From Planctomycetota bacterium (GTDB lineage Bacteria; Planctomycetota; SZUA-567; H5-PLA8): a stretch of 64,000 nucleotides of DNA. Numbering within the stretch: position 1 is the stretch's first letter; each line of letters starts with the position of its first letter. The DNA lies in NCBI GenBank assembly GCA_027493525.1, contig JAOSKN010000003.1, positions 496,001 to 560,000 of the forward strand, written 5' to 3'. The notes beneath the pieces are model-generated. The model made no database searches, had not been told where the DNA came from, and saw only the letters and a program-made list of their open reading frames with translations. A program made the position numbers and the translations under genes. Positions 28,072 through 30,482 of the stretch are shown one piece after another.

Positions 28072-28412
28072 TGCCGGGTATGGCTTGCGGCTTTCGATTT
28101 AAGCTTTGAATCGGCGCGCAGGGTTGGCTTGCTGCCCTGAAGGCGAGGTCTTTCGGCGCGCGCTGGCCTTGGGGCGAACGGGAACTAAAACGGGCCCCGC
28201 CACTCGCGTGACGCGGCCCGGTTCGTTTCCGCGGACGTAGAAGGCGAGCTTTTGAGCATCTTCAGGAATATCGTAGCGCCATCTGCTGGCCCTGGAGGGC
28301 GTCCTCTTCGTTGGACTCGTCCGCCGTATGCGCCTGATACGTCTGGTCTCGTCCGCCTCGATGCCGCCCTCCATGCCGGCGCATCTGGCACTACACTATT
28401 CCTGAAAATGCT

Positions 28413-28631
28413 CTAGAGATCGTTGGGGCGGACGGTGGAGCGCTTGTTGGCCTTGGCGCGATCGGAAGCCTTATCCAGGCAGCAGGCGACGCAGGCGCTG
28501 AGGGCGTCGACGAGGTCGCCGGAACTCTTGAGACCCTTCGCCTTGACGTAGTTCTTCACCTTGCTGCCGACCACCAGCCCTTCGGCGGACGCCTTGCCCT
28601 TGCCGCCGGCCTTCTTCGCCTTCTTCGCCAT
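28413..28631 (-). CDS. Small bacterial histone-fold protein
   Basis: 72 aa: Lys-rich N-terminus then 'VVGSKVKNYVKAKGLKSSGDLVDALSACVACCLDKASDRAKANKRSTVRPNDL'; R-S-T-V-R-x-x-D histone-fold signature. Confidence 0.75.
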   Translation of the reverse strand: MAKKAKKAGGKGKASAEGLVVGSKVKNYVKAKGLKSSGDLVDALSACVACCLDKASDRAKANKRSTVRPNDL

Positions 28632-28734
28632 GGGGATTCCTCCTCCGCATCGTCTAGGCGGCGGGACGCGTGCCACGCCGGTTTCAGGTTGGAAGTTGAA
28701 CAGGCGGGCGACTCTAGGCGCTTTCGCCAAGGCG

Positions 28735-30482
28735 TCAAGGACTTCCGGGGCGCGCGAGGCGCCCGCGCGCTTCAAGCCGGCCGCGCGGCGCGCCGGGGCC
28801 GGGTTCGGGCGTAAGGCGCGCCTCGAGCGCGCCCCAGATCCCGATTGCGCGCTGGATCAGTTCGACGACGGCGCCCTCGTCCGGATACCGTTCCATGAAC
28901 TCCGCCGCGCCCAATTCGTCGCGTTCTTCCTCGAGCCAGATCTGGGCAAGCATCCCCGCGATGGGCGCCAAACGCGCGCCGTCGGTGCGGAGTTCGAAGC
29001 ACGGCTCCGGATCGCGCGGGGCCGCCGGCCGGGCCAGCAGCGGCGGCGCGGGGAGCATCGCGAAGGGCCCCGCATCGCTGCTGACGGCCAGGCCCTCGGC
29101 GTCGGTGAGCCACATCGGCCGGGTGTAGCTGCCGCGGACCAGAATGTAGCGGTCCACTTCGCCCTTGCGGATGCGCCGAACGTAGGGTCGGTCGGCGTCC
29201 TCGCTAGGCGGATCGTCGTAGAGCCCTTTCCAGCGCACGCGGGCCAGTTCGCCCAGCGCGTGGCGGGCTTCGGGGGTGGCGTGGAAGGGAAGCGAGGCCA
29301 GCACGCGCGGCTGCCCGGTGCCCGAGCCCGGCGCGGGATCTGCGATCTGCACCCGCAGCACGCGCCCGAAGACCGGCCAAAGCGAAGCGTTCAGGTCCAC
29401 CTGCGCGTCGGCCAGGTACGCCAGGCGCGTCTCCCAGCGGCGCTTCGACTTGCCGTCCTGCAATTCCTCGAAGAGGTGCCGCGCGAAGAGTTTGCCCAGG
29501 TCCAGCGGGATTCGAGCGTCGAGGACCGGCTCCCTGCCGCCTAGGCCGTCGTCGAGCAGCCGCGCGGGCGGTTCGTGCGGCGGCAACCCGCCTTCCCATT
29601 CGCCGTCGGCGCGCAACACGTCGGGAGTTGCGCTAAGGTGGATGCGGATCCGTTCGGGCAGCACCTGGAGCCCGAAGACCTCGGGCCAACTCGGGCGCAC
29701 CAGCCGCGCGTAGTCGATGCCCTGCTCGATCCGAATCGCGCGCGGCCGCACGTCGATCTCGACGGCCGTGCCCTCGGGGACCGCTGGGCCGCCGGCGTTT
29801 CCCGCTTCGCCGTTGTCGGCGGGTTCGGCGCCGTTCAAGGCCAGCGCGATCAGCCCGCCGCCGAGGTCGTGAAAGGCCGCGCGAACCTTGGCGGCGTTCT
29901 TGCCGAAGCGCCCGGCCATCCAGCCGCCCATGCGGACCAGCGCGCCGCGCCCGCCCTGGAGGCGCAGGTAAACGGCGAGCGGCGGCTTGCGGCTCCGTTC
30001 GCCGTCGCTCGCCGGCGGCGGGGCCTCGAGGACCACGGCGAGTTCGCCGCCGACCAGAAAGCGCGCGCCGGGCCGGTCGGGTTGGAAGAGCGCCTTCAGC
30101 AGGGCTGGCTGCTTGTCCCATTTGGCGCGGAACGCCTCGAGCTTCTCCCGCCAGTGCGTGCGCGCCTGAAGTTCGGGCAGTTCCCAGAGCGCCTGGACGG
30201 CGGGGTGCGCTTCGAGCGCGCGCCACGCCTCATCGCCGTTGCGCACGCGCGCGGAGATCAGGGCCTGCTTGGGCAGATAGCGCCCGATGGGGCCGCCGGC
30301 CGTCGGCGCGAAGCTGGCGGCGAAGGGGCAGACGAGGCACGCGCCGAGCAGCCAGGCCGCGGCCAGGACACGGCCGGCGACGCGCAGAACCTGGCGCCAG
30401 GGCTTGGGGGCTCAGCCGCTACGGTCAGGGGAGCCGGGGAAGGCGGAGCGGGCGGGGGAGGGCTCGGTTCCTGGTGATCCAT
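28735..30482 (-). CDS. Hypothetical membrane-anchored protein; probable 1-nt frameshift near 30406-30410
   Basis: 503-aa ORF 28735-30246; adding one base to a G5 run joins MDHQEPSPPPPAPP... to a TM segment (VLRVAGRVLAAAWLLGACLVCPFAASFA) and then the main ORF. Confidence 0.6.

Follow-up and report, generated by a model that had tools for sequence, protein, structure and literature searches.

A 72-residue planctomycete histone with the signature residues of the FtF class

A short open reading frame of a planctomycete genome was analyzed together with its surroundings in the window, the whole stretch of 64,000 nucleotides under study. Translation of minus-strand positions 28413–28631 gave MAKKAKKAGGKGKASAEGLVVGSKVKNYVKAKGLKSSGDLVDALSACVACCLDKASDRAKANKRSTVRPNDL*. 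A preliminary description had proposed a small bacterial histone here, and the three stretches it quoted, a Lys-rich start, an RSTVRPNDL end and an ACVACCL segment, were all read in this translation. The features of the locus are listed below.

28413–28631, minus strand: gene for the predicted face-to-face (FtF) histone, alpha3-truncated, 72 aa; start ATG at 28629–28631, stop TAG at 28413–28415.
28581–28631, minus strand: Lys-rich N-terminal tail, residues 1–17, net charge +5, of low pLDDT.
28539–28568, minus strand: helix alpha1, residues 22–31 (GSKVKNYVKA region), from the AlphaFold2 model.
28449–28514, minus strand: helix alpha2, residues 40–61, with C47, C50, C51 and R58, and with N62 directly after it; from AlphaFold2, the HLp alignment and PMC12701072.
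28416–28439, minus strand: L2 loop and alpha3, R64-S-T66-V-R-P-N-D71-L72, with the putative R–D clamp R64/D71; from sequence, alignment and model.
28636–28646, minus strand: Shine-Dalgarno region GGAGGAGGAA, 5' of the ATG, read from the sequence.
28711–28738, minus strand: weak promoter-like site TTGACG-16-TAGAGT about 80 bases 5' of the ATG, a consensus match only (9/12).
28735–30246, minus strand: 503-aa neighbor protein directly upstream of the histone, in conserved gene order.
28254–28416: 163-bp MITE-like repeat with terminal inverted repeats GAGCATYTTCRNGAATA; arms at 28245–28286 and 28381–28422.

The ATG is preceded by GGAGGAGGAATCCCC. Because this is a strong Shine-Dalgarno sequence at good spacing, the 72-aa start is likely and was preferred over a mechanically listed 120-aa extension starting at TTG. 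Compared with the gene of the sister species (L002), the histone gene showed 46 base differences, 31 of them at the third codon position, and the differing codons comprised 29 synonymous and 9 non-synonymous ones. The NG86 estimates were dN 0.097 and dS 1.25. Together with the third-position excess, these values mark the reading frame, on comparative sequence grounds, as a protein-coding gene subject to purifying selection. In the 64-kb window, neither an Rfam scan nor a tRNA scan returned a match.

Pfam and NCBIfam scans of the 72-aa protein gave no match at E 10, Pfam CBFD_NFYB_HMF (PF00808) included, and PF00808 was not found in the whole genome at E 1. A phmmer search of the PDB returned HLp of Leptospira perolatii (9QT0) as the best match at E 2.1e-12, followed by HBb of Bdellovibrio (8cmp) at E 2.4e-5 and HTkC of Thermococcus at E 0.0034. 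A single-chain AlphaFold2 model, built on an 11-sequence alignment, reached pLDDT 90–94 in the core (residues 21–72) and a mean of 52 and 57 in residues 1–10 and 11–20, respectively. The Lys-rich tail of residues 1–17 is therefore probably disordered. Helices were predicted at residues 22–31 and 40–61, in line with the alpha1–alpha2 pair thought plausible beforehand, and a last turn of three residues at 69–71. The predicted net charge of the protein was +11, with +5 in residues 1–17 and +6 in the core.

The structure prediction that had been proposed as a check thus yielded a histone-like monomer. Foldseek against the PDB placed HLp first, with an rmsd of 0.6–0.7 Å, a TM score of 0.95–0.96 over HLp and 48% identity; HBb and HTkC came next, and histones of archaea and eukaryotes followed at some distance. 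Since the PDB sequence matches and the Foldseek ranking agree, the protein is, as judged from sequence and model, a bacterial histone with HLp as its closest solved relative, and the signature residues described below agree with this identity. Bd0055 (HBb), the comparison first suggested, does match significantly, but the nearest solved relative is instead HLp, an FtF tetramer.

The family to which the planctomycete histone belongs has already been described. In the classification of Schwab et al. (2024), the alpha3-truncated histones, whose alpha2 is shortened and whose alpha3 has 3–4 residues, comprise FtF tetramers, bacterial dimers and minor groups (PMC11390915). Two residues that join the dimers, Arg and Asn at profile positions R48 and N52, are retained in FtF histones and are both missing from bacterial dimer histones (PMC11390915). 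Hu et al. (2025) confirmed the tetramer for HLp, in which R49, N53 and R55 are conserved and R55 and D62 form a clamp (PMC12701072); all four residues are conserved among tetrameric FtF histones (PMC12701072).

In the phmmer alignment, HLp R49, N53, R55 and D62 correspond to R58, N62, R64 and D71 of the planctomycete histone. The RxTxxxxD motif of alpha3-truncated histones is present as R64-S-T66-V-R-P-N-D71, and the chain ends D71-L72, one residue past the motif Asp, which is where FtF histones have the C-terminal carboxylate that reaches across to the opposing dimer. The extent of alpha2 (40–61), the last turn at 69–71 and the best Foldseek matches (HLp, HBb and HTkC) agree with an alpha3-truncated histone. 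R58 and N62 are both conserved in 50 of 51 distinct homologs from related genomes, and 47 of the 51 have their C-terminus within one residue of the motif Asp; T66 and D71 are invariant in a 30-row alignment. By sequence and model, the histone is assigned to the FtF class because R58/N62, R64/D71 and the position of the C-terminus fit its definition, and all residues tested (R58, N62, R64, T66 and D71) are in place. The alpha3 had rightly been called very short, although this is no oddity of the protein: the short alpha3 defines the class (PMC11390915) and is shared by the 47 homologs just mentioned. As a separate observation, three relatives (L018, L020 and L021) end in RKTVRAHDF plus two or three residues and make up a small group of variants in the phylum.

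The closest comparison is with HLp (PDB 9QT0, 9QT1 and 9QT2; PMC12701072). Both proteins have the whole histone fold, a positive N-terminal tail and a one-turn alpha3 that ends one residue past the clamp Asp, in addition to the four equivalent residues. However, only about half of the residues are identical over the fold, and the Lys-rich tail is longer in the planctomycete histone. Its dimer core has C51 and S56 where HLp has L42 and L47, and its last residue is L72 in place of F63. The core is thus less hydrophobic than that of HLp at positions 51 and 56, a point against the HLp-like reading given below. The archaeal FtF histone HTkC of Thermococcus kodakarensis (9F2C; PMC11390915) shares the truncated fold (rmsd 1.1 Å) and, by class definition, the FtF signature residues. 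Its sequence match is weaker, at 35–36% identity and the E-value given above, and archaeal FtF histones are generally tailless (PMC11390915), whereas the planctomycete histone has a tail.

By analogy with HLp, we consider it highly probable that the planctomycete FtF histone is a homotetramer around which about 60 bp of DNA is wrapped regardless of sequence, and that it serves as one nucleoid protein beside HU. Two chains would pair head-to-tail through alpha2. Such dimers would associate in twos, with a contact at each end made by R58, N62, R64 and the opposing dimer's C-terminal residues, into a closed, torus-shaped homotetramer. The DNA would be wrapped by a positively charged belt to which the lysines of alpha1, both loops (L1 and L2) and the tail contribute. 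The HLp tetramer wraps about 60 bp with contacts from alpha1, L1 and L2 (PMC12701072), and the counterparts of its DNA-contacting lysines and L2 residues are K24, K26, K30, S65 and T66 (alignment and PMC12701072). The histone would work as one nucleoid protein among others, because the genome also carries three HU-family genes.

A dimer-type histone like HBb of Bdellovibrio bacteriovorus (8CMP, 8FVX and 9EZZ; PMC11317129, PMC10627809) would bend DNA as a dimer and not wrap it. HBb shares the truncated fold and the RxTxxxxD motif, its match is significant in sequence (8cmp, as above) and structure (Foldseek rmsd 0.9–1.2 Å, about 1 Å), and bacterial dimers have also been reported from Planctomycetota (PMC11390915). 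Even so, this reading appears improbable. The alignment places S and D of HBb at positions 58 and 62, so that HBb lacks equivalents of the two residues needed for the FtF tetramer (PMC11390915), whereas both are present in the planctomycete histone, and the HLp match is better than the HBb match by seven orders of magnitude.

The gene neighborhood bears on another reading, in which the histone fold no longer packages DNA and has a different role, for example as a regulator or as a partner of the 503-aa neighbor. This neighbor has no Pfam or NCBIfam match. It adjoins the histone directly upstream in 5/5 histone-bearing genomes of the family, at 36–49% identity, and the sister species and L024, a further member of the family, share the order lpxL-like gene, GT2, PCMT, 503-aa protein, histone; argG lies convergently on the other side of the histone. 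Some minor histones have no identifiable DNA-binding residues (Schwab et al., PMC11390915). On the other hand, the Lys and Thr positions of the HLp DNA contact are kept here (K24, K26 and K30; S65 and T66), the tail as well as the core carries a net positive charge, and the 503-aa protein is not common to more distant relatives. We regard a non-packaging role as very unlikely. That the frame is a chance ORF with a mere resemblance to the histone motif, to which the silence of Pfam, NCBIfam and PF00808 might point, has a practically negligible probability and is refuted by the HLp match, the low dN/dS against the sister species, the homologs across the phylum and the histone fold of the model.

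Relatives of the histone were found in 22 of the 60 nearer genomes. A profile search found them in 163 of 392 sampled Planctomycetota genomes (about 42%) and in 97 of the 217 high-quality ones, although the query itself escapes Pfam and NCBIfam. Planctomycetota are already among the listed FtF carriers (PMC11390915). L024 shares its protein match with L003 of the same family, and L031 shares its own with L014 of the same class; the named relatives that coincide in this way are Planctomycetota, which places the window in a planctomycete. Named relatives outside the phylum came from Deltaproteobacteria, Myxococcales, Bdellovibrionales and one Ilumatobacter contig. No histone relative was found in the viral contigs searched, and a phage origin is thus unsupported. 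Within the family, the histone was detected in 5/7 genomes, and the two genomes without it are both incomplete (79–86%); this presence in 5/7 does not support a universal essential role and counts against the nucleoid reading to that extent. The source genome (G000) has a single copy, and paralogs were rejected as a candidate. Some genomes of the phylum survey carry two or three histone copies, such as G084 with three.

The source genome also has three HU-family matches, by which a Leptospira-like situation with the histone as the only nucleoid protein was rejected; Leptospira lacks HU (PMC12701072). A further difference is that SMC and methionine aminopeptidase, the reported histone neighbors in Leptospira, are not among the planctomycete histone neighbors examined. 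This planctomycete thus retains HU and encodes an FtF histone as a standard gene of its chromosome. Research on bacterial histones is recent, and two examples, dimer or tetramer, have been characterized. The locus refines what was known of FtF histones in Planctomycetota without altering it, adding sequence rather than principle.

The alpha2 cysteines had been noted as unusual. In the alignment, C47, C50 and C51 occupy the places of HLp K38, A41 and L42, the last of which belongs to the dimer core. Among the 51 homologs, the full triad occurs only in both species of the genus (L001 and L002) and in another planctomycete (L025), and single cysteines are scattered over several alpha2 positions in other homologs. 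The triad is indeed rare, but as a lineage feature only; a conserved functional site was rejected as a family feature on this distribution. From the sequences, the triad looks like a lineage variant that resembles tolerated small residues in the helix. That oxidation or a metal ion locks or alters the dimer through the triad, making this a redox- or metal-responsive bacterial histone, seems a doubtful proposal of low probability.

The genome has five good copies of the 163-bp repeat, one directly downstream of the histone and the others at C2:665765, C1:177323, C2:2356110 and C2:1986201 of G000. TA flanks both sides in 3/5 copies, as is expected for IS630/Tc1-mariner-type elements. An exact search for the end pattern did not find the repeat in the other six genomes of the family. 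One end of the repeat lies in the TAG stop codon of the histone. Truncation by the adjacent repeat was rejected as the origin of the short alpha3, since homologs that lack the repeat stop at this residue as well. In the sister species, which has no repeat here, TAG stands at the corresponding place; this fits a repeat that inserted at the TA of a stop codon already present and thereby regenerated TAG.

A repeat end forms the TAG stop of the flanking gene in 4/5 good copies, the histone included. This is unlikely to have arisen by chance because TA occurs 973 times in the window. If one tenth or one fifth of the tolerated sites were stop codons, the chance of 4/5 would be 0.0005 or 0.007, respectively. 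In each of the three non-histone copies, a long ORF has its TAG stop formed by the repeat end; one of these ORFs we take, by its sequence, to encode a LysR-type regulator.
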